Part shown: piece after piece, positions 13,636 to 50,929 of the stretch
How the letters are laid out: every line of letters begins with the position of its first letter
Position numbering within the stretch: the first letter of the stretch is position 1
Assembly: GCA_016935665.1 (NCBI GenBank)
Contig: JAFGQN010000081.1
Span: forward strand, 1-64,000
From: Deltaproteobacteria bacterium
GTDB lineage: Bacteria; Myxococcota_A; Polyangia; JAAYKL01
Reading direction: 5' to 3'
Length of the DNA stretch: 64,000 nucleotides
Notes under the pieces: model-generated
Told to the model about the DNA's origin: nothing
The model's input: only the letters and a program-made list of their open reading frames with translations
The model's database searches: none
Translations under genes and position numbers: made by a program

Positions 13636-13724
13636 AGTATCGTCGACGGAGGTTGCCGCTTTGAAAGTGCCGTAAAAATTCCCCAAAACACCAATGATTT
13701 GGTATAGCGGTTATGACGCATTCA

Positions 13725-13763
13725 CAGCAGCAGGGCACAGCAGCAGGGCACAGCAGCAGGGCA
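13725..13763. repeat. Three 13-bp tandem repeats before the TIR gene
   Basis: CAGCAGCAGGGCA occurs three times end to end, followed by two decayed copies. The 13-bp unit would shift frame each time, so the upstream ATG at 13713 is an unlikely start for the next gene. The bases around the two candidate starts (GCGGTTATGAC) are themselves duplicated. Confidence 0.75.
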
Positions 13764-13790
13764 CAGAAGCAGACACAGAAACAGGCGGTT

Positions 13791-16700
13791 ATGACAACAT
13801 CGGTTGAATCCAAATACCAATATGACGCGTTTATCAGCTACCGTCGCAAAGATGGGCGGCATATCGCCATGTGGCTGCGAAAACGCATTCAGCGATATCG
13901 GCTTCCTTTGGCATTTCGAAAACAGGCGGCCCATTTGTTTCCCCGGCAACTCAAAGTTTACCTGGATACGGCGTATGAGACCGCGACGGGGGATTTCTTT
14001 GACAACACCATCAAACCCGCTCTCTTGAAATCCAAACACCTGATTATCATTATTACACCCAGCGTTGCACAGCTGGATGCCGACAGTGCCGATAACTGGA
14101 TGGCCCGGGAATATCGGGATTTTTGCGCCAGGACCGACAGTTCGGCCGATAACGACAGAGACATCCTGTTGGTTTTGGCCCAGGGCGTCCATCATCCCGG
14201 CCCCTTGCCGGCGTATCTGGCAGCGGATTTTCCACGTGCCGAAGTGTTGGATTTTAGAAACTGGGCATCCAAATGGCCCCCGTCAAAATCGTATATGGCA
14301 AGGGAGTTTGAAAAGATTGTGCCCCCTCTGTTTGGTATTCCGTCCAGTGAGCTGCCCGCGCTGCGACAGGAAGAACAGCGCGCTGCCTTTCGAAAAAGAG
14401 CGCTTTGGACAACCACTGCCATCGGGTTGATTCTTACCTTTATGGCGCTGTTTCTGTGGAACGCTTCATTGCGAAAACAGGCCGAACAGGAAAAGGCGCG
14501 CGCGCAGCAGGCACGCCGTGTGGCGGAGAAAAATGAGCGGGTCGCCAACTATCATTTGGCACACATGTTTGAGGAAAAAGCCGATGCTGCGCTAAATGCC
14601 GCCAAATCCGGTTCCGGCGAGGGGGCATACCAGCAGGCATGGCTCTACACGTTGTCAGCCCTAAATCAAAAGATAGGCAAAACGCGCCATTTACCGACAT
14701 CGCTGGGCCAGCTTGGAAATTTGAACCTTCGGCGCGGGATACGTCAGGCGCTCTGGACATCTCCGAGTCTTCCGGAGACAGGCATTGCCGTGGCGTTCAG
14801 CCCCGATGGCAGGCGCATGGTTACCGGTTCATTCCATAATACGGTCTACCTGTTCGATGTGGACACCGGCAAAGAAATGGCGATCTATGACGGCCACGAA
14901 AATACCGTTCACAGCGTCGCCTTCAGCCCCGATGGAACGCATGTGGCGTCAGGATCTTTTGACAGAACCATCCGCATTTGGAATGTGAAAACCGGTACAC
15001 CGCGCCACATCCTGAAGGGACATGACGAATTGATCACCCGCATCGCATTTTCTCCCGATGGCCGTCGCATCGTCTCCGCATCATGGGATAACACCGTACG
15101 GCTTTGGGATGCCCAAACGGGCCAGTTCATCCGGGTTTTTAAAGGACACGACGATAGCGTTCAGGATGTGGCGTTTCATCCCAACGGAAAACAAATCGCC
15201 TCATGCGCAAAAGACAAAACAGTGCGCCTGTGGGATGTGGAAAAAGGAAAAACTCTCGCTGTTTTAAAGGGACACACCGGGGCGGTGAACAGCGTCGCCT
15301 TTTTTTTGGATGGCACGCGACTTGTCACTGGGGCCTCCGATAACAGCGTTCGGATATGGGATCTGAAAACGGAACAGGAGATAGCATTGCTCGAGGCACA
15401 CAATGATGGGGTGACAACCGTGACCGTCAGCCCGGATGGCCAAAAAGTCGCTTCCGGGTCCAATGACATGACGGTGCGCCTGTGGGACGCGACCTCCGGC
15501 AAATCGCTCGCCGTGCTCAAAGGCCACACCAGAGAGGTGTCGAATGTCGCGTTCAGTCCGGATGGACAATATCTCGCTTCCGCAGCATGGGATGAGACGG
15601 TGCGCCTCTGGAGCGCCGCCACAGGCAAAGCGCTGTCCAATTACACCGGGCATGGGGACAGCATTGAAGGCGTGGCCTTTAGTCCGGATGGAAAACGCGT
15701 GGCGTCCGGCGGCTCTGGCACAAGAGACAATACGGTGCGGCTGTGGGACGTTGAGACAGGTAAAGAACGGGCTGTTTTTTCAGGACACACAGATGACGTC
15801 AACAGCATTGCATTTAGTCCAAATGGACGATGGCTGGTGACGGGCTCAACGGACAAAACCATACGTCTGTGGGATGCAGGGGATGGTAAACCGCGTATCG
15901 TCTTTAAGGGGCATGAAAAAAGTGTGCGTATGGTCGCCTTCAGTGCCGATGGAAAAAAAGTGGTTTCGGGGTCAGATGACACCACCGTGCGGCTGTGGGA
16001 CGCAGGCAACGGCAACGCCCTGGCGGTTTTGGAAGGTCATGAAAAAAGTGTGCGCAGTGTGGCGCTCAGCCCGGATGACCGGTATATGGTTTCGGCATCG
16101 GACGATAAAACAATACGCCTGTGGGATTCGGTGAATCGCAGGGAACTGGCGTCGCTTAAAGGGCATGAAAAGGGCGTGGGCAGTGTCGCTTTCAGCACTG
16201 ACGGAAAACATGTCGCATCCGCTTCCGCCGATCATACAGTTCGTCTGTGGGACATACCGACAGGAGAAGAAGTTGCGGTGTTCAAAGGGAATCCCGATTC
16301 CCCATGGGGCTTTCACAGCGTGGCGTTCAGCCCGGACAACCAACTGCTGGCGTCCAGTTCCGAATCTACCATACAGCTGTGGCATATTCAAACCGGGAAA
16401 AATATTGCGGTGTTCAAGGGTCACAACGGAACGGTTCACAGTATCGCGTTCAGCCCGGATGGAAAACGCCTTGTCTCGGGCGCCGGCGATGGAACAATGC
16501 GTCTTTGGGATGTGCAAAGCTGCAATGTCGCGTCCTTCTTCTTTGGCGAGAACCTTTGGTTTCGCGCGATGACATTTAGCCCGGATGGGAAGCGCATGGC
16601 CTTTGGATTATGGGATATGCAGAACCCGTCGGATTCGTTAAAGCAAACCGTCCGCCTGTGGGACGCGGAAAAAGGCATGGAACGCGCTGTGTTCAAAGGG

Positions 16701-17678
16701 TATTCAAACACGGTCATCAGCCTGGCGTTCAGCCCCAATGGGCAGCTTTTGGCGTCTGGCACGTCGGAGGGAACCGTACGCGTCACAGATGTGAAAACAG
16801 GCAAAGAACTCGCCAGGTTACACGGCAATGACGGGGAGATTAACAGCGTGGCGTTCACTTCAGACGACAATCAGGTCATATCTGCCTCCAGACTGGGGTT
16901 CATACGCAAATGGGAGTTTGCCACCGGCAAAGAAGTCGCCTCACCGATTAAAGTGCCTGCGCGAACAAATAACATTGTCTTGAGCAAAGATGGCGCCTAC
17001 TGCGCGATGCATGACACGTTTAGTGAAGCTATCTCCCTTTGGGATACCCAAACCGGGAAAGCGCCACGGGTACTCAAGGGACATGAAAGTTATGTCAGCG
17101 CTCTGGCATTCACCCCCAGCGGAAACCACCTTGCATCCGGCGCATGGAATGGCGCCATACGTCTGTGGGATGTCGCAACAGCAAAGGAGATTGGGGTGCT
17201 TAAAGGACACGAAAAAAAAGTGGTCGATGTGGCCTTCAATGCCACCGGCGAGCGCCTTGTCTCCTGCGCCAGGGATGGCACAGTCCGACTGTGGGATGTA
17301 AAAACCGGTGCAGTACTCGCCGCTTTGGACGGATATGACCATCGCCTGGCACGCGTTGCATTTAACCCAAACGGCGACACCATTGTGTTCACCAGCACCA
17401 TGGCCAATTTCAGCAGCTTGGGCAACACGCTGCATCATTGGAAACTGGATTTGATAAACGCCTGGCTTGAATCCAAAAGAGAGGCGCCAATGTTCAAAAC
17501 GCTGTTCGATGCCTCCTTTAAATTGCTCCCCTGGCGCCTGGACGGCATCCGGCTGGTACCCGACCCAGAGCCCCGCGCCATTCCACTGAAACATGTTAAA
17601 AATACGAATGAACGATTCTTTGGTCCCCGTCCTTTGGGAGAGGATTTTGTGGATGCGCTTACGTCCAACATTGACTGA
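13791..17678 (+). CDS. TIR domain - membrane helix - 21 WD40 repeats
   Basis: 1295 residues from ATG 13791 (an ATG at 13713 is in frame but lies across slipped 13-bp repeats). Residues ~11-175 form a TIR domain: 'YDAFISYRRKDG', 'KVYLDTAYETATGDFF', 'LIIIITPS', and a W-x-x-x-E ('NWMAREYRDF', Glu107), which is where NAD-cleaving TIRs carry their catalytic glutamate. A single membrane helix lies at ~205-223, followed by a short charged coiled coil. From ~330 on there are 21 WD40 repeats (AFSPDG...VRLWD...GH), which would make three seven-bladed propellers, then ~70 residues without repeats. The TIR half is probably cytosolic and the propellers periplasmic or vice versa; topology is not settled. 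Likely a signalling or defence effector; substrate unknown. Confidence 0.85.
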   Translation: MTTSVESKYQYDAFISYRRKDGRHIAMWLRKRIQRYRLPLAFRKQAAHLFPRQLKVYLDTAYETATGDFFDNTIKPALLKSKHLIIIITPSVAQLDADSADNWMAREYRDFCARTDSSADNDRDILLVLAQGVHHPGPLPAYLAADFPRAEVLDFRNWASKWPPSKSYMAREFEKIVPPLFGIPSSELPALRQEEQRAAFRKRALWTTTAIGLILTFMALFLWNASLRKQAEQEKARAQQARRVAEKNERVANYHLAHMFEEKADAALNAAKSGSGEGAYQQAWLYTLSALNQKIGKTRHLPTSLGQLGNLNLRRGIRQALWTSPSLPETGIAVAFSPDGRRMVTGSFHNTVYLFDVDTGKEMAIYDGHENTVHSVAFSPDGTHVASGSFDRTIRIWNVKTGTPRHILKGHDELITRIAFSPDGRRIVSASWDNTVRLWDAQTGQFIRVFKGHDDSVQDVAFHPNGKQIASCAKDKTVRLWDVEKGKTLAVLKGHTGAVNSVAFFLDGTRLVTGASDNSVRIWDLKTEQEIALLEAHNDGVTTVTVSPDGQKVASGSNDMTVRLWDATSGKSLAVLKGHTREVSNVAFSPDGQYLASAAWDETVRLWSAATGKALSNYTGHGDSIEGVAFSPDGKRVASGGSGTRDNTVRLWDVETGKERAVFSGHTDDVNSIAFSPNGRWLVTGSTDKTIRLWDAGDGKPRIVFKGHEKSVRMVAFSADGKKVVSGSDDTTVRLWDAGNGNALAVLEGHEKSVRSVALSPDDRYMVSASDDKTIRLWDSVNRRELASLKGHEKGVGSVAFSTDGKHVASASADHTVRLWDIPTGEEVAVFKGNPDSPWGFHSVAFSPDNQLLASSSESTIQLWHIQTGKNIAVFKGHNGTVHSIAFSPDGKRLVSGAGDGTMRLWDVQSCNVASFFFGENLWFRAMTFSPDGKRMAFGLWDMQNPSDSLKQTVRLWDAEKGMERAVFKGYSNTVISLAFSPNGQLLASGTSEGTVRVTDVKTGKELARLHGNDGEINSVAFTSDDNQVISASRLGFIRKWEFATGKEVASPIKVPARTNNIVLSKDGAYCAMHDTFSEAISLWDTQTGKAPRVLKGHESYVSALAFTPSGNHLASGAWNGAIRLWDVATAKEIGVLKGHEKKVVDVAFNATGERLVSCARDGTVRLWDVKTGAVLAALDGYDHRLARVAFNPNGDTIVFTSTMANFSSLGNTLHHWKLDLINAWLESKREAPMFKTLFDASFKLLPWRLDGIRLVPDPEPRAIPLKHVKNTNERFFGPRPLGEDFVDALTSNID

Positions 17679-19727: not shown

Positions 19728-20264
19728 TCACCTTTTTCCGCATTGAACTGAATATTGGCTTTCTTCTGGAAAATCAGACAATAATCCGTGATAGTCAACG
19801 GCGCACAGGAACGCCTGATACACATCCCCTCCGACAAAGCGTTTTGCGCGGGGATTGTAATTAAGCATTTCCCTTAAAGAGCAGGGCTGCGTTTTAATCC
19901 AGAACTGGCCCATTTCGCGTACGTTGCGCTGAACCTGAAACACAGTGGAATCCGCGGAACTGACGATAACGCTGTGGTGGTTCACATGGTCGATGGAACG
20001 AGCGCCATCGCGCCGTTTTCGGGTAAAAAAGTCATTCCATGAATTGAATCCCCAATATGGGGCATCTTTGTCGTAGATATAATTGTCCATATGCAGTTTC
20101 TTCTGTGCATCAGCGCACATCCATCCCTTTTTCATTTTGCCCGCTTCGTGTTTTGATTCGAATTAATCTGCAATCACATATCGCGAATACGGACTCGACA
20201 GAAAATTCTTCCAATAGTCGAGAATTTCTTTGAGCATGACATTGACTTCAGGAATAATTTTGAG
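19728..20264 (-). pseudogene. Phosphatidylserine decarboxylase-like gene, broken
   Basis: A minus-strand frame opening at 20264 reads 'MLKEILDYWKNFLSSPYSRY', meets TAA at 20163-20165, and continues in the same frame with 'GWMCADAQKKLHMDNYIYD', 'YWGFNSWNDFFTRK' and 'GGDVYQAFLCAVDYHG'. These are successive conserved blocks of the plant/fungal-like decarboxylases, in the right order and spacing. After 'DYHG' the frame leaves the family and ends, so the C-terminal self-cleavage site (LGST/GGST) is missing. One nonsense codon plus loss of the 3' third means it is not functional as decarboxylase. Translation could restart at 20135. Confidence 0.75.
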
Positions 20265-20836: not shown

Positions 20837-22042
20837 TCAGGGCGTATACCCGTCGGAGAGGGTTTGCAAAAAGGCGACAAGTGCCGCTTCTTCCTGGAGC
20901 GTGAGTCCAAGGTCCCCGATTTCATTAGACACGTTCTGCGGTATTTCTGCCGCGGGCCAGGGAACCCCCATCCATCCGGCGCCGGGAACATCGCGGGTGT
21001 TGTAAAAATGCACCAGTTGCGCCAGCGACTTGAAGTACCCATTGTGTCCAAACGCTTTAACAAACGCACCTCTGCCGGGCCTGCGATCGACATTTCGCAG
21101 CGTGGGCACGCGATGTTTCCCCCACTCGGTTTCGTACACATCGACCCCGTAGCCCAGATTGCGCAGGGTATTGCCCAGCCCCGGGTCCACCCACTTCGCA
21201 CCGTCGGGATTCCATTCTTCGGGCATGGTGTAAAAGGGATTGTTCTCATTTTTGGGCAATCCAAGGTTGGCGTATGAAAAATCGGTGAAGAGGGGAGCGC
21301 CTCCGCTCGGCGCAGCAGTCACCGAATGGCAACTGGCGCACCCCGCGACGCCTTCAAAAAGCTGCAATCCCTGGGTTTCGGCTGCATTCAACGACACCTC
21401 GCCCAAAAGATACGCATCGTACCTGGAGCTGTATGGATTGACCTCGGCGGAGTGTTCGTACGCGGAAATGGAAAAACCGATGCGTTCATAGGTACCCTGC
21501 ACATCTCCCACACAATCAATGGCGCCCGGCCCCCAAACTGTTTCAAACAGGGCGCTGTACGGCGCGGTTTCCACTGCCTGACACACCGACGCGGCGTCGG
21601 GATTGTTCTGCTCCAACGGATTTAAAAACGGCCCCAGCGCCTGCTCTGCCAGTGGATCCCCAAGAGTCCACCCCGTCGCGCGACCATCCCAGAAAAGTCC
21701 GCCTGTCCATTCGGAGAGGGCGGGGTTGTAATCCAGAACAGGCACATCCCCGGCGTATGCGGCCGCCGGTGGTTTCCGATTGCCGAACCGACTGGCAACA
21801 GCCCCGGGATATACCGCCGTCTCCCGGTTGATTCTGGAATTGGGACCTGTAAATCCGACTTGTTTGCCATGACAGCTGGAACAGGCCTGACCCTCTGGAT
21901 TGGACAGGCTGTGGTCATTGAAAATCGCCTTACCCACTTGCTCCATACGAGTCAGAGATCGTTGCGCCCGTAACTGGAGGGGAACCAGCCCGATACCCAG
22001 CGCAAGCACACTTACAGAAACTGCAAACCTCTTTTTTAACAT
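20837..22042 (-). CDS. Di-haem cytochrome c peroxidase (CCP/MauG family)
   Basis: 401 residues with AGGAGG before the start and a signal peptide (cleavage near residue 26). Two haem c sites are visible: 'CSSCHGKQ' near residue 54 and 'CASCHSV' near residue 230. Family blocks 'GKAIFNDHSLS', 'GLFWDGRA' and 'VPTLRNVDRRPGRGAFVKAFGHNG' are present. These periplasmic enzymes reduce hydrogen peroxide with electrons from small cytochromes, or oxidise other substrates in the MauG branch; I cannot tell which applies. It is transcribed divergently from the sulfur operon across a 549-bp region with inverted repeats. Confidence 0.9.
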   Translation of the reverse strand: MLKKRFAVSVSVLALGIGLVPLQLRAQRSLTRMEQVGKAIFNDHSLSNPEGQACSSCHGKQVGFTGPNSRINRETAVYPGAVASRFGNRKPPAAAYAGDVPVLDYNPALSEWTGGLFWDGRATGWTLGDPLAEQALGPFLNPLEQNNPDAASVCQAVETAPYSALFETVWGPGAIDCVGDVQGTYERIGFSISAYEHSAEVNPYSSRYDAYLLGEVSLNAAETQGLQLFEGVAGCASCHSVTAAPSGGAPLFTDFSYANLGLPKNENNPFYTMPEEWNPDGAKWVDPGLGNTLRNLGYGVDVYETEWGKHRVPTLRNVDRRPGRGAFVKAFGHNGYFKSLAQLVHFYNTRDVPGAGWMGVPWPAAEIPQNVSNEIGDLGLTLQEEAALVAFLQTLSDGYTP

Positions 22043-22591: not shown

Positions 22592-24580
22592 ATGAGACAT
22601 TTTGTCATTGGTATTATTCTCGGTTCCTTTGTTCTTGTGGCGTCCGCAGCGACCATCAGGGACGGCGAATCCGCCAGTCATGGCGACGAAGCGGCAACCT
22701 ACCGGATTGTGGATACGTACCGGTTTGATGGATTTGAACTGGTCCAGTTCAATCTGGCTGTGTTGTCCCACTATTCTTACATTCTTATCAGCGCCAAAGA
22801 GGCTCTGATTGTAGATCCCGGCCGGGATGTGGATGTGTATCTGACGTACTGCGAAAAGAGAGGGCTGAAAATAAAAGGCGTTTTTCTGACCCACTCCCAT
22901 GCGGATTTTGTTGCCGGTCACAGTGAGCTGGCTCAGGTGCCGGGGGTTGCGGTGTACTCCGGTATCCACAGTGGCGCGAAGTTTCCCCACAAATCGGTAA
23001 AGCAGGGGTCCCGGATAAACATCGGGACTGCCGTTGTCACCGTCTGGGAAACACCGGGGCACACACCGGATGGCCTCTGCGGCATCGTTGGCGCCGGCGA
23101 TGGTCCGCCGCAGCTGGCCCTGACCGGAGATACGCTTTTTATTGGCAGCGTCGGGCGCCCCGACCTGATGGGCGGTAAAATGTCGGCCGCATCACTGGCG
23201 GCCATGGGATTCGATACATGGATGACCAAACTATCGACACTGCCCGATTCGGTGGCCATTTTTCCGGCCCATGGCGCGGGCTCTCTATGTGGCGCACACC
23301 TGAGTGACGCCCCCACATCGACAATTGGAGAACAGCGAAAAACCAATCCTTATTTGCAATATACAAGTCGAAACGATTTTATCACCGCAGTGCTCGATGG
23401 CCTGCCCGAGGCGCCCGCGTATTTCAAGCACAATGCCGCGATGAATCAGAATGGACCGCCACTGGTGGATTGGACGGCGCCACCTGCACAAACCGCCGCC
23501 ACTGACACCTTGACCGATCCGTCGAAATATTATGTGGTGGATGTGCGGGACGCCGCCAGCTACGCCGAAAAACACATTCCCAATTCGGTCAATATCGGCC
23601 TGCGGGGACGGATTGAAACCTGGGTGGGCATCATGGTGCCCTGGGATGCCGAACTCGTTCTGACCGGAAGCGAGACGGAACTGGACGAGGCGGTGCAGCG
23701 ACTGCATCGGGTGGGATACGAGGGAAAGGTGCTCGCGTTTAAAAACTGGGAAAAATCCGGCCTGAAAACGAGACGCAACGACCTGATGACCGCCGAGGAA
23801 CTGCGCCGCCAGATGATAGACGGGAAAAATCCGATTATCGTGGATGTGCGGCTGCCCACAGAATGGATGGGATTGCGAATTGGCCAGGTCATCAACATAC
23901 CGCTCAACAAATTGGCAGAGCAGTCGACAAAGCTGAACGCGGAGGAGCCAGTAGTCGCGGTGTGCAATTCCGCGTTTCGATCGAGTATGGCAGTGGGGAT
24001 TCTGGAGCGCAACGGATTCAGCAAGGCAGTGAGCCTCAAAGGCGGTAGCCAGGCGTGGATTGAGGCGGGATACCCCACCTACTCCACCCAGATGACCCAA
24101 TCCCTTGCCTCTACCAAAGTGGAGAATCGCGAAATTGAGGCGCCGGAACGAATTTCCACCGATTCCCTCGGCAGAATGATGGTGGATATGCCAGGCAGTT
24201 TCGAAATTGTTGACATTCGCCCGCCACAGGCGTTTGCCGAATACAATCTGCCCCTGTCCGCCAATATCCACTACGCCGACCTGATTACGGATTCCCACTT
24301 TGTCGAAAGCCGCAAACCGCTGGTGATCGTCGACAGGGACGGGTCGCTGGCGATGGCCGCCGGTGGTATTCTCTCTCAAAAAACAAACCGCCGGATAATG
24401 GTGCTGCACGGTGGATTGACCGACTACTGGAAGAAGTCCATGTACGGCATCGGACAAAGTGGCACCCAGTCAGAGATCCCGGTGCTGGATGTGAAACCGG
24501 CGTCGGCCCCTGTTCAATTGCCCTCAGAGGCCCCTTTGGCCAGGCCCAAAACCAAAAAGAAAGTGAGCGCGGGGTGTTGA
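22592..24580 (+). CDS. Exported metallo-beta-lactamase/rhodanese sulfur protein
   Basis: 662 residues, AAAGGAG before the start, signal peptide to ~Ala20. Residues ~45-260 are a metallo-beta-lactamase fold like persulfide dioxygenase (ETHE1/BlhLike): 'THSHADFVAGH' (101-110), His157 in 'PGHTPDG', Asp180 in 'LTGDTLF', His227 in 'PAHGAGS'. Three rhodanese domains follow: ~312-390 (no catalytic Cys), ~398-495 (active loop Cys458 in 'VAVCNSAFRSS') and ~522-615 (Asp in place of Cys). Known two-domain relatives oxidise glutathione persulfide. Periplasmic location and one live plus two dead rhodaneses point to sulfane-sulfur handling outside the cytoplasm. First gene of the operon. Confidence 0.85.
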   Translation: MRHFVIGIILGSFVLVASAATIRDGESASHGDEAATYRIVDTYRFDGFELVQFNLAVLSHYSYILISAKEALIVDPGRDVDVYLTYCEKRGLKIKGVFLTHSHADFVAGHSELAQVPGVAVYSGIHSGAKFPHKSVKQGSRINIGTAVVTVWETPGHTPDGLCGIVGAGDGPPQLALTGDTLFIGSVGRPDLMGGKMSAASLAAMGFDTWMTKLSTLPDSVAIFPAHGAGSLCGAHLSDAPTSTIGEQRKTNPYLQYTSRNDFITAVLDGLPEAPAYFKHNAAMNQNGPPLVDWTAPPAQTAATDTLTDPSKYYVVDVRDAASYAEKHIPNSVNIGLRGRIETWVGIMVPWDAELVLTGSETELDEAVQRLHRVGYEGKVLAFKNWEKSGLKTRRNDLMTAEELRRQMIDGKNPIIVDVRLPTEWMGLRIGQVINIPLNKLAEQSTKLNAEEPVVAVCNSAFRSSMAVGILERNGFSKAVSLKGGSQAWIEAGYPTYSTQMTQSLASTKVENREIEAPERISTDSLGRMMVDMPGSFEIVDIRPPQAFAEYNLPLSANIHYADLITDSHFVESRKPLVIVDRDGSLAMAAGGILSQKTNRRIMVLHGGLTDYWKKSMYGIGQSGTQSEIPVLDVKPASAPVQLPSEAPLARPKTKKKVSAGC

Positions 24581-24581
24581 G

Positions 24582-25094
24582 ATGAATAAACCTGCCAAAC
24601 GATATATAAATCCGTATCTGGGCGGCATGTTGCTGGGCGTCCTGCTGGTGATGACGTATCTGTTGCTGGGCACCGGTTTGGGGGCGTCTGGCGGACTGGC
24701 GCGGATCGCAGCGAGCATTGAGGGTATCTTCGCTTTGGACCACGTGCGAAACAGCGCCTATTTCGGGCAATGGGGAGACGCGCCCATGCGGTATTACCTG
24801 GTGTTCATGCTGATTGGTGTGTTTGTGGGCGGCGGCATATCCGCATTTTTAGGCAAGCGGTTGAAGCGAGGCGTTGAAAAAGGCGCCGCCGCATCCATCA
24901 AACGTCGCATGACATATGCCCTCGGCGGCGGGATTCTAATCGGTTTTGCCAGCCGGCTGGTTCGCGGATGCACGTCCGGTCAGGCGCTTTCCGGTGGTGC
25001 GCTGCTGTTGACCGGGAGTCTGGTTTTCGTTTTTTCACTTTTTGTCAGCGGATACATTTCCGCCAGATGGTTCAAGGAGCAGTGGCATGATTGA
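24582..25094 (+). CDS. YeeE/YedE (TsuA-like) transporter, first half
   Basis: 170 residues, starting one base after the preceding stop. About four membrane helices and the family signature 'RGCTSGQALSGGA', whose Cys is part of the sulfur-relay path in the thiosulfate transporter TsuA. Full-length YeeE proteins are about 350 residues with two such half-repeats. Here the halves are separate genes that overlap by eight bases. It probably moves thiosulfate or another reduced sulfur species across the inner membrane. Confidence 0.85.
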   Translation: MNKPAKRYINPYLGGMLLGVLLVMTYLLLGTGLGASGGLARIAASIEGIFALDHVRNSAYFGQWGDAPMRYYLVFMLIGVFVGGGISAFLGKRLKRGVEKGAAASIKRRMTYALGGGILIGFASRLVRGCTSGQALSGGALLLTGSLVFVFSLFVSGYISARWFKEQWHD

Positions 25095-26253
25095 CACCTT
25101 CTTTATGAACGGACAATTAAACGAAGCGACGGGATTCCTGGTGGCGCTGGCGATTGGAATTCTATTTGGGTTTATTTTGGAGCAGGTGGGATTCGGCAGT
25201 TCGAAAAAACTGAGCGGCGTCTTTTATTTTCGCGACATGGTGGTGTTCAAATTCATGGCGTCCGCCCTGACGACCGCTGCTGTTGGCATGGGCATCCTGT
25301 GGTCGCTTGGGCGGATGGGACCTGAAAACACATATGTGCTTCCGACGGTGTGGGGCGCGTATGTCGTGGGGGGAGTCCTGTTTGGCGTTGGGTTCGCCAT
25401 GTCGGGATGGTGTCCGGGAACGGGAGCGGTGGGACTGGCGTCGGGGAAATACGACGCCGGTGTATTCATCGGTGGTGTGCTGATAGGGTCGATCGTTTTC
25501 AACGAGTTGTATCCGGTGATAGCCCCGCTCTATACCTGGGGGGATCAGGGGGTGGTATATCTTCATGAATCCCTTGGCATTTCAAGACACGGCGCATTGG
25601 TGCTGGTCGCAATCATTGCGGTTGCGACCATCGGCGTCAGTGAGTGGATTGAACGCCGGGACATTTCAAAGCCGGCTCCGGCACACATCGGTGCGAGGAT
25701 TCTCTCCATCTGGCAGGTCACCCGGGAAACCGCCCGGGCGGATCGCGGGTTTCTGATTTTTCTGACAGGGATTGGCGCATTCACCCTGGTTTTGCTGATG
25801 GTGACAAAAGATTACACTTCCGAGCAGGCCATGCTGAAAAAAATCGCCGCCGGAGAAGACCACATCGAGCCGGACGTGCTGGCGCGTCGCATGCTGAAAG
25901 CCAATACCAATCTGCTGGTGGTGGATATACGTCCCAAAGAGGAATACGAGGCATTTCATCTGAAAGGCGCCATCAATGTGGAATTGCCCAACTTGCCAGG
26001 GGTACTCGCCCGTCAACCTCGCGATATGGATATTGTGCTGTACTCCAATGGAATGACTCACCCCGCCCAGGCAAGAGATGCACTGGAAAGGGCCGGTTTT
26101 GACAACGTCTATCTGCTGACCGACGGGCTAAACGGGTTTATCGACAGATGTCTCACACCGGTATCCCTCAGAAGCGAACCCGTACCGGCACCTTTGGCCA
26201 CGGAAATCCGACTGTGGCGACAACACTTTCTGTTGGCTGCGCTCACAAAATGA
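25087..26253 (+). CDS. YeeE/YedE second half fused to a rhodanese domain
   Basis: 388 residues; AAGGAG lies seven bases before the ATG, which overlaps the stop of the first-half gene. Residues ~1-240 carry membrane helices and the second signature 'SGWCPGTGAVGLASGKYD' (Cys109). Residues ~262-352 form a rhodanese domain ('LLVVDIRPKEEYEAFHLKGA') whose active-loop Cys is replaced by Asn ('VLYSNGMTH', Asn321). A C-terminal tail follows. Transporter plus tethered inactive rhodanese suggests sulfur binding or docking rather than transfer. Final gene of the operon; function inferred from family. Confidence 0.85.
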   Translation: MIDTFFMNGQLNEATGFLVALAIGILFGFILEQVGFGSSKKLSGVFYFRDMVVFKFMASALTTAAVGMGILWSLGRMGPENTYVLPTVWGAYVVGGVLFGVGFAMSGWCPGTGAVGLASGKYDAGVFIGGVLIGSIVFNELYPVIAPLYTWGDQGVVYLHESLGISRHGALVLVAIIAVATIGVSEWIERRDISKPAPAHIGARILSIWQVTRETARADRGFLIFLTGIGAFTLVLLMVTKDYTSEQAMLKKIAAGEDHIEPDVLARRMLKANTNLLVVDIRPKEEYEAFHLKGAINVELPNLPGVLARQPRDMDIVLYSNGMTHPAQARDALERAGFDNVYLLTDGLNGFIDRCLTPVSLRSEPVPAPLATEIRLWRQHFLLAALTK

Positions 26254-27621: not shown

Positions 27622-27761
27622 CCGCTGCAAAAGTGGGCTCGGTTTTGTCCGCCCTGATTTTTATTGCATTCCACAAACGTGACCTTCGCTGATGCATGCG
27701 GGGCACATTGGTTGAGACACGGACCTTAAATTCCAGTTCCCCAGGGAGGAAAACAACCAAT

Positions 27762-29456
27762 ATGCTTCGTCAAATGATCCTTGCAATACTGATTGGAATG
27801 CTGCCCCAGCTGTTGGGCTGCAACGACAAACCCGCCTCGGATTCAGACACTGAAAGCGATACAGACAGTTACGGTGATGCGGATAGCGACAGCGACGGCG
27901 ATGCAGATACGGACTCCGGTACTTCTGCTGACGGAGATACGGATTCGGATGGGGATACCGATACAGATGGCGATTCAGACTCCGATGGGGATACCGATGC
28001 CGATAGCGACTCGGACTCCGATGGGGATACCGATGCAGATGGCGACTCGGACTCCGATGGAGATACCGATGCAGATGGCGACTCGGACTCCGATACCGAC
28101 ACGGGACCTGTCCGCACGGCAGATTGTGAGGAGCTGATTTCCAATCCAGAGGTTAACTGGCGGGAATCCGCCCTCAAGACCGACCAGGAAATCGTGGCCT
28201 GTCTGGCGTCCTCCCTGGGCACGCCGGTGGGATACGGCGAAAAAGCCACCGGCGGATATGACCCGGGCGGCAACAGCAATCTGGTGGTCATTTCGAAAGG
28301 CGGCGATGTGTCGGTGGAACAGCAGCTGCTCGATGCCATCCGCAGCGAAGAATATAACTGGATTGTTTTTGACAAAAAGGATTTCAAAGCTGAACAGTCC
28401 ATCGCCATGTATCGCCTCTACTGCAGCGACAGCGCGGTTCTGGCTGCGCTTGACAACGCCACCCAGGCGGAATGTCTCAATCACGAACTGTGGTGCAGCA
28501 ACCGGAGCGTCAGTGGCGCCAATTGTCTCGACACATTTTTCAACGACAGGCTCAATGACAGTGACCTGCCCATTCGCAACGCGCGCATCAATTCCCATAC
28601 CACCATTGATGGGCGGCAAAGCGAGGCGTTCATGCTGTTTAACGGTTTTGCCATTGGTGGCGACAGCGGCGGCGAACCCACAGAAACCGCCACCAGTGTT
28701 ATTGTGACCAACATGCGCTTTCAAGGCGCCGGACACACCGAAGACCACGGACTGGACCCGGATATGATTCGCTCCACCGGCGCCTCCCACGATATCTGGA
28801 TTCATCAGAACACCTTTGATTTGACCGGCGATTCCGCGTTTGATGTGAAAGTGGGGGCCTACGACATCACCATGTCGTACAACCTGGTGCAGAACGTGAA
28901 GCGCGCCGCCCTGCACGGCAGTAGCGACAGCCGGGAAATCAACGAACAGATTACCACCACCATGCATCACAACGCGTTCATCACTGGCGACGAGTACTAC
29001 GAAACATTTGGCAACACCGCCAGACGTGTCCCCCTGATACGTCGCGGCAAATCCCATATGTTCAACAATGTATTTTACAATTATCGCAAGGAAATTCTGA
29101 GCGTGCGTGTGGGTGGACGCGTGGCCTTTGAAGACAATATGTTCCTGGTAAATCCCGCTGCGTCCGATGACGGGGACGACTTGGACTACTGGGTAGAAAA
29201 TCTGCTGCGCGGCTTTGAAGAAGGCGGCCTCGAAATCACCGGCAGCAAAGTGTGGATATCCAATTCCAGTTACCAGTTATCCGGCGATGCCCCAGGCGAT
29301 CTGACCGCATCCCACGGCAGCACACCCAACATGATTGACGACTACAGCATTGGGTCCCAATCCTGGATATCCGACCATCGAATGACCGTGGGACAGGACC
29401 TGGTCAAACACGTCATGGACAGAGCCGGTAAAGGCGCGCAACCCGCATTCCAGTAG
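27762..29456 (+). CDS. Pectate lyase (PL1-type) lipoprotein
   Basis: 564 residues from ATG 27762 (GGGAGG 12 bases upstream). Lipobox 'LPQLLGC', then ~90 residues of Asp/Ser/Gly repeats built from 18-24 bp DNA units (about 27840-28110), then the enzyme. Parallel beta-helix lyase features: '[21 protein letters not shown]' type block, '[10 protein letters not shown]', 'MHHNAF', '[20 protein letters not shown]'. The R-x-P-x-x-R arrangement holds the catalytic arginine of PL1 enzymes. Exported and lipid-anchored; would cleave polygalacturonate or a related uronic acid polymer. Single gene. Confidence 0.85.
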
Positions 29457-41666: not shown

Positions 41667-44600
41667 CTAATTATTAGTGCACCAGGAAGTGGAACCGTTG
41701 TTTTCACAGTGCTGAGTGGAACTGCAGGCCGTACATGTGCTTCCACAGTATTCATTGGAAGAACAGAACTTGCATCCCTCAATAGAACCAACGCATCGCT
41801 CGTAGCTTCCACAGGCTTCCCAACCACCCGCGCCATCTCCGCAATGGTCTCTGGTATTGGCTTCAACACAGTACCTGCTGTCACCGCAATAGAAGTTGTC
41901 CGGACACTGGGCATCACCGGCCGTATCTGCGCTGGGACAGGTCTGTTTCATACGGCAACAGCGGAAGCCCAGATTTTCCAGCCGATAATCTGCAGCCGAC
42001 CCATCGGCGGCAGAGAAGTCGAAATTGCAGGCCAGCCCATTGGCCAGGTCATTGAACGAACCACCGCGGATACCATACAGCGTCACACCTGTTCCCAGTT
42101 GTCGTGCAGTCCCCGTCCATTCCTCCACGTTGCCCGACAGGTCCATAACCAGAGAAGGATCAGTGTCAACATCCGGCCAATCCGCAATGCAATCCTCCAA
42201 ATCCGTATCACCGGACGGCCGCGCTGAAATATCCGTATCGGCGATACCAAAATCCAGTCCGTTGCAGGCAAGCGGGTCATACAATGCATCGTACGGATAA
42301 ACCAAATCAGTATCCGTCGCAAACAGAATTTCTCCCGCACAGGCATACTGCCATTGCTGCACGGTGCACAAATCCCAGCACCCTGCCGTATCATCTTCAC
42401 ACCCAGGCTGATTCAGCAAATCGCAGGCCGCTTCGGCATCGGCAAAATTGACATAGTTCCAGGGCATTCTGTCTGACCGCGAGCAGGCGACCGTGTGGCC
42501 GGACCCGCCCGCCGTGTCACTGGCATCCCAGCGGGAGGATTCGTATTTAAAAATCTGGAAAGAAAGTGATGTTCCCGCAGTATTGACATATGGTATCTCC
42601 ACATATTCCACATAGCCATCGGCGCCTTCGTCGGCAGTACCGTCGCAATCATTGTCAATGCCATCCGGAATGGTTCCTTCCGGTTTCTGATGCGCTGTCG
42701 AAGATAACATATTGATGATGTTGTCAGAATCACAGACGTACGGGTCCGAATTGGACAAATCACAGCAAACCGTGCCCTGACCATCCGGGTTGCACAGATA
42801 TTTGCCATAGCGCAAACACCCACCAACCGGCGTTGGAACAAGACCTTCATTGGAACACTCCGCCATCAACGGATCTGTATCGGTGTCTTCAGCGAACGAC
42901 TCATCCACCACACCGTCGCAGTTGCCATCCACACCGTCACACACGGCTTCACTCAGGGCGGGATTGGGCGCATCACCCAGCGCGCATTCGAGACCATCTC
43001 CGCCCAATCCGTCATCGTCGCAAACATAATCGCAGGCCCATTCTCCCGCATCAGTGTCACAGTAGTCACCGTTTACGTAGCCGGCATCACAGAGCCCATT
43101 GCAGGCGCCGGGATTGCTTAGTCCTTCGTCCACATTGCCATCGCAATTGTCGTCTATCCCATTGCATTCCTCCAGTGTAATGTCTTCATCAATCTGACCG
43201 TCACAATCATCATCCACGCCATACTGACTATTGACGCCATCACATCTATCGCAGGCCGTATCACCATCACAATAGGTATTGTATTCGCATTCGCACCCGT
43301 CCGTCTTTCCGTTTTCAACATCGTGATACCCAAAAACGCAGGTCTTCAGTTCGCAAACTCCGGCCTGGCAATAGTATTCCGCGACATGCAAGTCCGTATC
43401 CGCCAGCAGAGTGGTGCAATCACTGTCGCATCCACCGCAGTGATGCACGTTGTTGTCAAACTGAAAATCCTCATCCGCTGTGCCATCACAGTCATTGTCG
43501 ATACCATCACAAAGTGTTTCCACACTGGCATGAGTGTAACAGTTGGCGTCTCCGCATTCCACGCCGGCAGCCGAGTCGTACTGACATGTCCAGTCGATGG
43601 CGCCGCCGCATACCGCCGCTTTGGTCCCCGGGCAGTTAGCGTTGCACAATGTATCCGTATCCGGTGGCGTCAACCCTTCATCCACCTCGCTGTCGCAGTC
43701 ATTGTCCACACCGTCGCATTTTTCGATGTCGTGATCAGTTCCCACCTCATCACAATACATGCCGGAAGCGCCGCATTTCCATAGTCCCTCTTCACAAAGA
43801 TCGGAATCCTCATCCCCGTCACAGGCTTCATAGTAGTTGGGCTCGTCAAAACCGTTTGGGGTATCGGGATTGCAATCCTCATCATTGTCAGCGGGATCAC
43901 ACAATTCGGCTCCCGGAGTCGGTTCGTTCGCACAGTAAATAAGGCCATTGGTATCACACTCCAGATTTCCCCCGGTGCACGGAGACCCACAGGGACGATC
44001 AGAATCCTGTCCATAAAATGCGTCTTCATCCACGTCACCATCGCAATCGTTGTCCAGGCCATCACATATGTCACAATGCCCCGGAGTGGCGCAATCGTCG
44101 TCCGGGCCTACTTCCCATCTACATATTCTAAGATCTGTCCCCGTTTCAGTATCGTCGGTGTCTCTGCAGCTGCGCTGGCCCCCCTGACATATACCCCGAC
44201 TGTAGTCATCGCCGCAACGGGTGTCCGTGTCTGCGAAGGCGCAGACAACATCAATGGAACCGCCGCATCGATAATTCTCCAGCTCATCCACAATGCCATC
44301 ACAGTCATTATCCAGGCCATCACAATCAATTTCCAGGGATGTCGGCATATAGGCGCAGCCAGGCGCAGCCTTGCCATTGGTATCGGTTTCGCATCGCTGC
44401 AGATACTCGCCGCATACACCTGCGCCACAGGTCTGCTTCAGGCGGTTGTCATACATGGAAATGTTGTTGTTGTTTCCATCCGCATCCGTATCCTCATCCA
44501 CCAGCCCGTCGCAGTCATTGTCAAGACCATCGCATACCTCACCCGATGGCCCCACTGCGCCCGAACATCCTGCACTGGTATCGTAGACGGGATACGAGAC

Positions 44601-47600
44601 ATCCAGATCCGCTGAAATGCAACGCGCCACCCCGGATTGACAGCTGCCGACATTTGGATCCGTGCCGTCAGCGCCGCCACAGGCGATGGTCAGTCCTTCA
44701 TCTGTAATGCCATTGCAGTTGTTGTCGATACCATCACATATTTCAAGAGCTGCCAGTGTAAATCCCTGACATTGTAAATTACCATCCACACATACATTGG
44801 TTCCCGGCGCGCAGATACCTGGACAATCCGTATCACCAAAAGGCGCAACACAGCCACTGGATCCCGCAGGATAGCACGGCGTATTGTACTCAGGATATGA
44901 TTCGTCAATCTGACCATCACAGTTGTTGTCCTTCGCGTCACACACTTCATCTGTGTCCATATTTCCATCAGAGTCGTCGTCGGAAATCACACACGGATGC
45001 TCACAACCATTGGCGCTGTTGCTGTCGTTGTTCCACCAGTTTGCATCGCAATCCCCCATGACACACGCTCCACCCACACAAAGCGCGGCCGCATGATCGA
45101 AACGACAGATATGACCGCAGTATCCACAGTTATTGGCATCGGTTTGAAAATTCACATCTTCGTCGAGCAGACCATCGCAGTCGTTATCCTGAGGCACGTA
45201 ATTGTCATTTTCGGGATCTGCTGAAGACGCAATTCCATCGCACTTATCCGCGTTGTCCGCCATATCCACAGTGGGTTTGCAATAATACTCACACCCATCC
45301 GCACTGTTGCTGTTCACATCCGACCAGTACGTTTCACAGGACATCAGCGTACACGTTCCCGCCACACAGGTGGAGGACGCATGGGGAAGAATACACACCG
45401 CACCGCATGCGCCGCAGTTGGAGGGATTGGTCTGCACATCCACACAGAACTCGTACCCCGCATCGTTCGTACAACACGTTTCGCTGGTGTCACAGGCGCT
45501 GCATCCCAACAAAGAGGTATCTGTTGTTGTATCACTGTCACTGATGGAATCCGAGACGGAATCCAATCCACTGGTGCCATCGGTGCCGCTGGTATCCCCG
45601 CTGGTGGAATCACTGTCGCTTCCACCGTTGTCACCGCCAAACGTGGACGTACCGCCATGTATCGGTCGACCATCCGTACCGTCGGCTCCTTCAAATTCAA
45701 ACGGGTCCACTGAACACCCCACCGTCAGAAGCAGCAGCAGTGCCCACAACCCAACCCGCATGGCTTTGGTCATCAACGTCTTTTTGTCCCTTTGACGCAT
45801 CAATCTGAACATGGCAATTCCTCCAGCCAGAAGTACAAATATCCACCCGCCAAACGTCGCGGGGCCAGACCCGGGTGCCGTGCTGCACATGCAACCGCCG
45901 GAACCGGATGCCAACACCCTGTCGAGTCCTTCGTAGTCATCTGTTTTTTCCGGCTCGGCCGGTTTGCCGCTATCAGAATCCTGTGCATCGTCTGAGGCGG
46001 TGTCGTTTGCGCCGGAATCCGTCCCATCCGTATCGCCCGTTCCGGATGTATCTTCGCCTGCCACGGTAACAAAGCCGCCTGGGGCATAACACGATCCATC
46101 TTTACATACCGTGCCATTGGGACAGGTCACGTTCATGCAGTCATCAAAGATGCACGAACCATCCACACAGGTTTCATAGTATTCGCACACCACGCCTTTG
46201 CAGCTATTGGTGAGGGTATTGTCACATTTCCCGGTCGCTGGATTACACAGCACACCGGTGGAACAAATAACGCCGGCACACGCGTCTGTCACACACACAC
46301 CGTCCTGACACCCCTGACCCGCCGGACATTCAACTTCTACACAGGTGCTCACACAGGTACCGCTGGTATTGCAATACTGCCCCTCCTCGCAGGTCACCGT
46401 CCAACATGGATCCGCAACACACAGCGTGCAGGGTTCCTCGGTGCACTGCGCAATGGCTTCGCACCGCTGGCCATCGGGACAGCCGGTAATCATGCAGCCT
46501 TCAGTGGTGGCATGGCAACGGCCGTTGTCTTCGGGAATGCACGCCTCTCCATCCGGACACGTCTTGCTGTAACAGACATCCACACACAGACCGGCCAACG
46601 GATCACAGGAACACGGCCCCACAAAATCATAGCCGGGTGTGCAATAATACTCATTAAATACGCACGGCAGCGCATCGGGCCGTGTGGGTTCACACAGCGT
46701 CGACAAACAGATCTTCAAACCACCGCGCACCTCGATGCACGATTTGCCCACAGGACATTCAAACTCACCAGTCCCGCACGGTTCCGCGCACTCCCCTTCA
46801 ATACACGAGGATCCCGCAGACGGACATTCCACCTGGTCTTCCTCATCCACCAAGCCGTCACAGTCGTTGTCCAGACCGTCGCATACCTCGGCGGTGGGTC
46901 CTGGTACATCGCAGATCCATTCACCTTCAACGCATTTCTCCACCGATGCCGGACACTCGCCAATGCCATCCGGATATGTGGTCTGCATCGCCGGGTCACT
47001 CATCCAGAACGGGGTTTTGGAACAGGGATCCCGCGTCAGATTCTCGTCGGTTTGCCCATCACAGTCGTTATCCAATCCGTCACAGATTTCCGCGCTTCCC
47101 GACGAGCCCCCCAGACATACTATTTCATATCCGTTTATCGCCGATCCATCTGTATCCCCCGTGTACATGCACTGGTATACGCCTGGTGTGCATACGCCAA
47201 GATACGATCCACAATCCTGTCCATTCTCAGCAACATCGTCGATGTTGCCGTCACAATCATTGTCGATACCATCGCAGATTTCCTGAGTGGGCAGGCTCGG
47301 TTCAATGCATTCGCTGTCAGAATCCCAATGTGCCGCGTCACAGCATTGGAGATCATGTTCGCTGTCTGTCAGTATGCACTTTAAAATGCCTCTTTCACAT
47401 GCGCCCTGCCCAACCTGACAAATGACTTCGACATCCCAGTTTTCGTCTGTTAATCCATCGCAGTCGTTATCAATGCCATCACACGCTTCCGCAACCGGAT
47501 TCACTTCGCCATAGCACGCCGGATCCCATGCGCCGGCCACTTCATCGCAGTACTGGTATCCCTGCTCGCAGGCGCCGGCAGCCGGGTCTGTATCGATGCA

Positions 47601-50600
47601 GTCCCAATCCGTATCCACCCCCACTTCGCAGCCGCCGCACGGAACGGGCGCGATGCCATCATCGGGAACACCATTGCAGTTTTCATCCAGGCCATTGCAT
47701 TCTTCATCTGTTGCGATGGCGCTGTTGCATTCCAGCTTGTACGAGCCAAATTGTCCCTCCGGCACGGCATTATCGCGAACACATTCGTAAACGCCGTTGC
47801 AGGACCCACAATCCAGCCCAACAAACGATTCCACCTGATTGAAGCGCAGGTCATCGGTATCGTCCCCATCATTCAATCCATCACAGTCGTCATCAAGACC
47901 GTTGCACAATTCGCCCTTGGGAATATTGCCTCCCACACAGGCTCCCCACATGTCTGAATCCGATTCAGTATCTCCGTCACACTGCCGCACACCAAAGGCG
48001 CATTCTCCAAGTGGCGGATCCGTGACGTCGTTTGTATCCCAGCCATCTGGAACACAGCTTTGAGTCACCCCTTCGTCTACAGCATCATTGCAATTGTCAT
48101 CCAGGCCGTTGCATACTTCCGTCACCGGATCCTGGTAACCGCCACACTTCAGGGATCCGTCAATGCAGTCAACTGTTCCAATATGGCAAAGCCCCAAACA
48201 ATTCCAGGAGCCAGGACTGCTCGTATCTTCTTCACAGCCACTCAACCCGCTGGGGTAGCAGTCGTTTCCAAAGGGCGCCGCATATTCCGTATCCTCATCG
48301 ACCTCACCATCGCAGTCATCATCCCTGCCGTTGCATTTTTCCGCCACCGGATCCTGCCACGATGTCAAATCGGAATCACAAATAAACACGGCGTTGTCCG
48401 TGGAGGATTCGGCCGGGTCGCACAGACCGAGCCCCGTGCGGCACTCACCTGCGCCCGGATTGCCAGAAACGCAGCTGAAACTGGTGTCCGTATCAAAACG
48501 GTAATCGCACCCGCCGCACGCGCCATAAACGCCTTCGTCCACGGTGCCATCGCAGTTATTGTCCAGTCCGTCACACACTTCCACCTGTGGTCGAACAATA
48601 TCCATACCGCCATCGCCAACACACGAATAAGAGCCATTTTGGCACACATAATGCCCCGGGTTGCATATGGATTGGCCGCCCACCACCCATCCATCGGCGC
48701 CGACGGGACATACCCCCCCCAGGGGCGCATCTTCATCGACGCTGCCATCACAGTCTTCGTCAATCCCGTTGCATGTAGCGTCCGTGTCATAGCTTCTCGT
48801 CACCTGGGTGACCGTGTTGCATCCCAGGGTATCGCTTTCGGTATCGCAGTACAGCAGTCCGGCGCGACAAACGCCTTTACAGTTTTCTCCATCTGCGTCG
48901 CATCCGCTGTCCGTGCCCGTGTAACAGCCGTCGCCCTTCCCCTGAAAGTTTTCATCCACCTGGCCGTTGCAGTTGTCATCCAGGCCATTGCATTCCTCAA
49001 GGCCGGCCGGCGTGTCGCCCTGACAATCCCATGTGCCGGGACTCACACAAACGTATGTGCCTTCCGAGCATTCACCAACAGCAGAGCCGCAGGGGCCGCC
49101 GGTCAGCCCCCAATTGTCCAAATCCGCATCGCCATTTTCATCAATCAACCCATCACAGTCATTGTCCACGCCATCGCATTGCTCCACATTGGGACCAATA
49201 TAATTCACACAGGTTTTACCATCGCCCCCCTGAATGCATTTCCATGTGCCCGCCCGGCACGGAGCCAAAAGCGTTCCGCTACCGCTCAACTGCGTTGCCA
49301 GGTAGGGATAGGCCACAGCATCCGCAGCACTTATACATGACTGTCCAAAATCCGGGTCTTCACTGGTGTCCCACGCGCCATCATCGGGCGTTTCATCGAC
49401 AACGCCGTCGCAGTTGTCGTCGATTCCGTCACATACGGTTTCGCCCGGATCTTCACACACGTTGGGCCAATAGCTGTTGGTCCCCTGCGTTCCCAGCACA
49501 TTGTGCATATCGCACGGGGATCCGGGATTATCCGTATCAGTGTTAATAACACCTTCATCGATTTCGCCGTCGCAATCGTCATCCAGGTAGTTGCACTGCT
49601 CAAAAGCGAGAGATTCGCTAACGATATAAAACAGGGCTGCGGAGAGGGCTTCCTGGGAGTACGCTGTAAACGCAGAACCAAAGTTATCCGGATCATAATG
49701 TCCACCTCCCAATTCGGCCATGTTGTCCAAATCCTCATCGGAATATGCCAACCCAATTACCCATGTATCAATGCCTGCCGCCTGCAACGCAGCAACTGGT
49801 CCAATATCGGGATCAGTATTGGAACTTGTTGGGTCGATACTGCCATTCCAGGCCCCGTCTGTCAGCATAATGACTGTATACTTTCTGCAGCTGGAATAGC
49901 TGTCCATCGACTTTGCGTCGGCGATATAATAGTATGCCGCACGCATCGCCTCGCCCAGAGGCGTCCCTCCACTGGCGCGCAATTCCTGCTCCAGTCCGTC
50001 TCCAGTAGGACCAGGATACTGTGATGTATCTGCTGATGGTCTTCCGGAGGTATCAAGAACAGGCAGCCCACTTGTGTCCACGTCAGTATCGATGGCATAC
50101 TCATGATGATCCATCCAAGTTAAGATTTCATATCGACTGTTCTCCGTATTTACACTTCTACCATAAAGCAAATCTGTTCCAGTTGAACTATAGTCCCCAA
50201 ATCCAACCGCCAAATAATTGGAGACGATGCCCCAATCGCCATTCCCGGCATAACGAAATCTGTCGTACCATCCGCTGCGCTGATTATCCTGGTAATACGT
50301 AGCGCGATAGGTATTGTTGTCATACGCAGGTTGTTCGCTCTGATAATCTTGAGAAAATTTTAATAGGCCGAATTCAATTTCACCGGAAGCATTTAACATC
50401 TGCACCATTGCTTCTTTGGCTGCATAAATCCGGGATTGCTGCCCCGCCGCAAGTGACGTTCCAGGACAACACTTTCTGCCCGAAAGCCACGGATCGTAGC
50501 TGCCATCACCCAATACGTAAGTCCCGTCAAAGTCCCACGCCATACTCCCCGAAGTATCGAACACGATGAGGATACGCGGTTTTATCTCGTACAATGTCTG

Positions 50601-50684: not shown

Positions 50685-50929
50685 CGACAACTCCTTCGGG
50701 CTAAAGTGGCCGCACGTCGCCGGTGCGGCATTCGTCATTTCTTTTCTATACGGGTGTGTGCCCCCGTGAATTAATAGATGCGTCAGCTTTTCCGGTTTTA
50801 TGAAAAAATTTTAATGAAATTAATACTTTAGAGAGTCTTCACTGACCCAGATGAGTGCATTTTGACCGGTGTTTTTGTGCAGGGGTGCAACCGCTTTTTT
50901 GTATTCGTTTTTTTTGGCGTCAAAATCAC

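Follow-up and report, generated by a model that had tools for sequence, protein, structure and literature searches.

The window analysed here is a 64,000-nucleotide stretch of DNA from a Deltaproteobacteria bacterium (assembly GCA_016935665.1, contig JAFGQN010000081.1, positions 1 to 64,000), in which three neighbouring genes on one strand, P0001, P0002 and P0003, form a putative sulfur cassette (Table 1). Pfam recognises one metallo-beta-lactamase (MBL) and three rhodanese stretches in P0001, the C-terminal half of Sulf_transp (profile 174-309) in P0002, and the N-terminal half of the same family (profile 4-161) together with a rhodanese in P0003. A single base separates P0001 from P0002, and the second and third genes overlap, in line with the original prediction of a YeeE transporter split into two overlapping genes. 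The length of P0003 is counted from its ATG (the mechanically longest open reading frame has 403 residues, from a TTG start at 25042), and the overlap was counted in 36 loci with gene starts set by alignment. Scanning the window for Rfam families and tRNAs returned none.

Table 1. Features of the cassette (positions in the window; residue numbers are those of the protein named).
Feature	Position	Strand	Remarks
P0001, CstB-like MBL protein (predicted to be exported) with three rhodaneses and a C-terminal Cys tail	22592..24580	+	662 residues
P0001, predicted Sec signal peptide, residues 1-20	22592..22651	+	hydropathy; AxA site
P0001, mature N-terminal motif D24-x-E26-S-A28-x-H30	22658..22681	+	conserved columns
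P0001, MBL domain	22700..23461	+	proposed metal ligands kept
P0001, proposed metal ligands H101, H157, D180	22892-22894, 23060-23062, 23129-23131	+	40/40 rows with letters
P0001, C233 in MBL domain	23288-23290	+	conserved 41/41
P0001, rhodanese 1, CstB-type pseudorhodanese	23489..23767	+	no Cys; colinear with 3tp9 and 3r2u
P0001, rhodanese 2, loop C458-N-S-A-F-R	23774..24079	+	Cys at 23963-23965, conserved 41/41
P0001, rhodanese 3, loop D-R-D-G	24140..24442	+	Cys replaced by D581 (24332-24334), 38/38 rows with letters
P0001, disordered Pro/Lys-rich tail ending VSAGC-COOH	24440..24577	+	Cys662 at 24575-24577
P0002, PmpA/YedE-type half transporter	24582..25094	+	170 residues
P0002, C130	24969-24971	+	conserved 38/38
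P0002/P0003 overlap, 8 bp	25087..25094	+	-8 in 32/36 loci, -4 in 4/36
P0003, PmpB/YedE-type half transporter with extra transmembrane helix and tethered pseudorhodanese	25087..26253	+	388 residues
P0003, C109	25411-25413	+	conserved 38/38
P0003, extra transmembrane helix, residues 218-242	25738..25812	+	hydropathy; basic loop before helix
P0003, tethered rhodanese	25858..26142	+	loop S320-N-G-M (26044-26055)

One scan of genome contigs gave 40 homologous loci (51-60% identity, mostly near full length), which according to the submitters' titles come from at least 10 phyla: Planctomycetota (15), Thermodesulfobacteriota (7), Verrucomicrobiota (4), Myxococcota (3), Pseudomonadota (3), and Omnitrophota, Auribacterota, Acidobacteriota, Kiritimatiellota and Lentisphaerota with one each, while three loci are unplaced. 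The three-gene association is not due to chance, because in 37 of the 40 loci both transporter genes follow the enzyme gene in the same order. The trio was not seen in L042 and L045, where the contig ends inside the enzyme gene, or in L049, where no transporter gene lies in the fetched flank. The three proteins have diverged in a correlated way (Mantel r 0.73-0.76, n=37, with L050, whose 5' end is missing, excluded), and none of 999 permutations reached as high. When neighbouring genes were clustered across the 40 loci, no further gene, and hence no regulator, was common to more than a handful, so the shared unit consists of these three genes.

Judged by sequence and predicted fold, P0001 is a relative of CstB, since its closest solved structures and its best fold matches are 3tp9 and 3r2u, the latter of which we take to be CstB of S. 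aureus. In a sequence search of solved structures, residues 57-496 aligned to 3tp9 (E 5e-64) and residues 52-485 to 3r2u (E 5e-50), colinear over residues 52-496 through the MBL, a Cys-less pseudorhodanese and a Cys rhodanese. The predicted structure (mean pLDDT 77.8) gave Z 42 with 3tp9 and Z 37 with 3r2u. Lower scores were reached by ETHE1 and persulfide dioxygenases (PDO; Z 25-29), glyoxalase II (Z 19-21) and beta-lactamases (Z about 18). The metal residues fit the mononuclear 2-His-1-Asp site of a persulfide dioxygenase and not a binuclear hydrolase, because H101, H157 and D180 are invariant, the position of the second-metal His is fixed as Phe (F106 in 40/40 rows) and H103 varies, being Asn in 4/40 rows (L024, L025, L035 and L039) and likewise in the sister protein of L087. 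The motif reads HxHxDF or HxNxDF instead of the HxHxDH of glyoxalase II and other binuclear MBL hydrolases. In ETHE1, the first His of HxH is the metal ligand. For PaPDO the metal site is given as His71, His146 and Asp163 (PMC12856154). An MBL of the persulfide-dioxygenase/CstB type is thereby supported over one of the lactonase/GloB type. The only cysteines conserved throughout the family are Cys233, Cys458 and Cys662, and Asp581 of rhodanese 3 comes directly after a strand (577-580) in the model. Thus, the original prediction was right that the MBL keeps its metal ligands and that one of the three rhodaneses, the second, keeps its Cys.

In contrast to the cytosolic location of CstB-type proteins, P0001 is predicted to lie outside the inner membrane. 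By a crude hydropathy test, a signal-peptide-like N-terminus was found in 37 of 38 scored relatives compared to 2 of 25 ordinary CstB-like proteins, the controls being the 27 such proteins from the phylum search minus two members of the sister clade; L014 (missed by the motif, signal-like by eye) and L050 (5' end cut) were left out of the test. The sole exception, L036 (7827-9956), has an apparent Tat-like (twin-arginine) start further upstream and not a Sec-type one, which suggests export in folded form. The conserved motif of the mature N-terminus lies in a stretch predicted to be disordered (low pLDDT at residues 17-31), and so does the tail of about 45 residues at the other end (pLDDT <50 at 617-662). 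A terminal Cys closes the protein in all 38 complete relatives and in none of the 25 controls, the endings being SAGC in 35 and SGGC, SVGC and DEGC in one each. A C-terminal selenocysteine was ruled out because the codon after GC is TGA, TAA or TAG depending on the relative. L049 (7956-9626) is a 556-residue member without rhodanese 3, and its Lys-rich tail still ends in Gly-Cys. SoxY and DsrC are sulfur-carrier arms with a conserved Cys close to a flexible C-terminus. In P0001, however, the Cys is the very last residue and the arm would sit on an enzyme.

The split transporter itself is the known PmpA/PmpB (YedE1/YedE2) arrangement and nothing new, consisting of two Sulf_transp halves with one conserved Cys each. 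In half-size YeeE proteins, PmpB corresponds to the N-terminal and PmpA to the C-terminal half, and the single Cys of each is at a position required in the full-length transporter (PMC11582611). The YedE1E2 pair imports zero-valent sulfur with both halves needed, and going by a section title the conserved Cys residues are needed as well (PMC10812762); import of sulfur by P0002 and P0003 is predicted from these homologues. The rhodanese of P0003 is predicted to be on the periplasmic side because the sixth hydrophobic segment, the extra transmembrane helix, follows a basic loop (positive-inside rule). This tethered domain has no active-site Cys. The original prediction had Asn in the place of Cys, but the residue is actually Ser320, with Asn321 next to it; Ser320 is the first residue past its strand in the P0003 model, and S320, G322 and M323 are conserved in 38/38 and N321 in 37/38. 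Unlike known PmpA/PmpB, PmpB here thus gains a transmembrane helix and a presumably outward pseudorhodanese, followed in 31 of 37 relatives by a tandem active-type rhodanese (C-R-T-G-H loop). The tandem domain is missing in the window and in five relatives (L014, L025, L029, L031 and L038), and L032 runs off its contig. The window's own genome has only two matches to it, both at 30% identity; one of these, a tandem rhodanese at G000:C137 63551-64396, begins at the window's end. In the sister operon of L087 (8499-9550), the Ser-loop (S-N-G-M) rhodanese is encoded by a gene of its own and begins with a hydrophobic segment, which provides independent support for export. An ArsR-family regulator gene follows this sister operon. 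The terminal-Cys tail, the N-terminal motif, the Asp of rhodanese 3 and the tandem active-type rhodanese, which are the strongest features of the cassette, had all been missed previously.

Compared to known systems, P0001 shares with CstB (3r2u) and 3tp9-type proteins the colinear MBL-pseudorhodanese-rhodanese order, the D-F motif, the HGAGSxCG Cys and the active Cys in the second rhodanese, whereas a signal peptide, the N-terminal motif, a third rhodanese and the tail with a terminal Cys are absent from those proteins. CstB is termed a persulfide dioxygenase-sulfurtransferase, and its cst operon partners are cstA, sqr and tauE (PMC5480029), whereas P0001 pairs with split YeeE transporter genes. 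A split sulfur importer beside a PDO is known from yedE1E2-pdo operons (A. tumefaciens blh, A. baumannii pdo2), and pdo genes are present in 177 of 212 bacteria containing yedE1E2; in these operons a cytoplasmic PDO uses the imported sulfur inside (PMC10812762), whereas here the enzyme would be on the outer side. Reviews propose that Acidithiobacillus has a periplasmic dioxygenase turning sulfur into sulfite (PMC4448039, PMC1142338), but this is an activity at the level of a model, and no gene of the P0001 family is named in the passages concerned. In other studies, PDO is placed in the cytoplasm in work on the Bohai Sea (PMC12345210), passages on a sulfide spring do not discuss PDO export (PMC10811913), and the uncharacterised Rho-PDO fusions of cable bacteria have their rhodanese at the N-terminus (PMC13047784). 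No account of an exported or periplasmic persulfide dioxygenase of the P0001 type, or of the cassette, was found in the searched open literature, a scope that does not extend to subscription papers and preprints. Hence, of the earlier suggestion that the operon is a variant, the split YeeE and the two-rhodanese PDO correspond to the known PmpA/PmpB and CstB, while the exported enzyme together with an importer stands as undescribed as far as searched; export and coupling to uptake are themselves supported by the 40 related loci.

It seems to us about evenly balanced whether P0001 and PmpAB together form a three-gene, periplasm-facing relay for sulfane sulfur. The exported P0001 would gather periplasmic sulfane sulfur and deliver to PmpAB either this sulfur or thiosulfate formed from it. 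Cys458 of rhodanese 2 would take up sulfane sulfur from a persulfide or polysulfide, the mononuclear MBL site (H101/H157/D180) would, given O2, oxidise a second persulfide to sulfite, and rhodanese 2 would form thiosulfate from this sulfite and the sulfane sulfur, as reported for cytosolic CstB. The flexible tail with Cys662 could swing like an arm to carry sulfur or to dock on the transporter. Import of the sulfur species would be the task of PmpAB (P0002 Cys130/P0003 Cys109), at whose outer mouth the Ser-loop rhodanese of PmpB may be a docking platform. Our even estimate for this relay takes into account the CstB-nearest fold and sequence, the ligand pattern, the trio, the correlated divergence, the export-type N-terminus and the terminal Cys, and also the separate Ser-loop rhodanese of L087 and the homologous split pairs that import zero-valent sulfur. 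A bolder version is possible but doubtful: an enzyme derived from CstB and exported would charge the Cys of its flexible C-terminal arm, plug the arm into outward rhodaneses on a split YeeE importer and work free of O2 in anoxic hosts, which, as a three-gene cassette spread across phyla, would be an undescribed delivery machine.

Several observations weigh against the relay. L049 keeps the terminal Cys, yet it has neither rhodanese 3 nor transporter genes nearby. The sidedness is predicted from hydropathy and charge alone, and the membrane part of P0003 is poorly modelled. If Sec exports the protein without its metal, Zn might take the place of Fe outside the cytoplasm. The survey of 41 host genomes (the 40 loci and the window's own) adds the question of oxygen: PF00115, which may take in NO reductases, matched in 17/41 and PF01654 in 25/41 hosts, 18 of the latter at E 1e-100 or better, so that 22/41 have a terminal oxidase candidate (PF00115 or a strong PF01654 match), whereas 19/41 have neither; the window's genome, which is among these 19, is 95% complete and the only one with a stated completeness. 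Because these 19 hosts lack a recognisable terminal oxidase, P0001 may have a main role other than chemistry that needs O2. A reaction with O2 could protect against sporadic exposure, or P0001 may have a different activity, and O2-dependent dioxygenase activity of P0001 is uncertain even though the 2-His-1-carboxylate set of a persulfide dioxygenase is complete.

Three other explanations differ from the relay in what the enzyme does. It is rather unlikely that P0001 is a plain detoxifying CstB that has been exported, turning periplasmic per- or polysulfide and O2 into thiosulfate while PmpAB only recovers sulfur, with no hand-over and no arm. Every CstB catalytic residue is retained in P0001, and the frequent co-occurrence of PDO and split YedE genes noted above would agree with it, but it leaves the invariant terminal Cys, the N-terminal motif and the Asp-loop and Ser-loop pseudorhodaneses unexplained, and the hosts without a recognisable oxidase speak against it. 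These same hosts would suit a machine independent of O2, in which the MBL transfers or hydrolyses persulfide or polysulfide by means of its metal and feeds the importer, for example in sulfur disproportionation or assimilation. Roughly half of all hosts appear to be anaerobes, dsrA is above the cut-off in 15/41, and the metal site is intact whether or not the hosts have oxidases. However, we know of no PDO-type enzyme that works without O2, several hosts, among them Planctomycetes bacterium CA13 (L038 in G486), match both haem-copper and bd oxidases, and absent oxidases may reflect gaps in the bins; we consider this machine unlikely. A lactonase, thioesterase or glyoxalase-II-type hydrolase with no sulfur role, which would have overturned the original prediction, is very improbable. 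P0001 reaches no curated NCBIfam cut-off, and GloB is its best match, though far below the requirement (82.2 vs 200.8 bits), but CstB and PDO structures rank well above GloB, the Asp-His of hydrolases is Asp-Phe throughout, HxH is naturally broken to HxN in some relatives, and the sulfur-transporter partners are fixed.

Among 144 genomes searched as relatives, P0001 had four matches at E 1e-60, two of them in the family (G000, G007) and two being two-rhodanese CstB-like proteins, and neither of the two same-genus genomes had a match. In 377 genomes of the phylum there were 27 matches at E 1e-45, mostly with about 30-35% identity. In a quickly built tree of 61 rows (support by SH-aLRT only), the family joins its sister pair (L061, L062) with a support of 100 and is itself supported at 98, and the closest partner of the window's protein is L014 (97). 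Transfer of the family between phyla is suggested because the Thermodesulfobacteriota rows are scattered in this tree, the starred branches forcing at least 5 changes, with the reservation that bins can hold stray contigs. Plasmid carriage was rejected: 31 plasmid records matched at E 1e-60, all with <60% identity, and only two covered 80% of the query; in the two records inspected, the coverage came from two adjoining genes. The window's genome also encodes a separate 377-residue MBL-rhodanese without the added parts.

Next to the cassette lies a divergent gene for a MauG/MbnH-like di-haem cytochrome c peroxidase (20837-22042, -), which was rejected as a part of it, as a relative was found (profile at E 1e-5) in the fetched flank of only 1/40 loci (L021), many flanks being short, and a further one at the sister locus L087. 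Elsewhere in the window are a truncated phosphatidylserine decarboxylase-like open reading frame (19728-20135, -; profile positions 1-81 of 198), a 1321-residue WD40-repeat protein with 16 repeat stretches at extremely high scores (13713-17678, +), a pectate-lyase-like protein with a long acidic S-D-S-D-G-D-T-D repeat linker near its N-terminus (27696-29456, +), and a 3023-residue protein in which seven stretches carry a motif of the MopE copper-binding type, along with a weak FGE-sulfatase domain (41667-50738, -).

The cassette is a real and conserved form of the theme of CstB and split YeeE, predicted to face the periplasm and undescribed as far as searched. The passage of extracellular zero-valent sulfur over the inner membrane is poorly understood, and as the enzyme, the importer and a Cys that may serve as a swinging arm are encoded in one cluster, the hand-over would be open to study by point mutants. 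Planctomycetes bacterium CA13 (L038) is not tagged as a metagenome-assembled genome in its record and may make the cassette approachable. If it is true that the MBL works in anaerobes, this would break the expectation that this class of enzymes needs O2.

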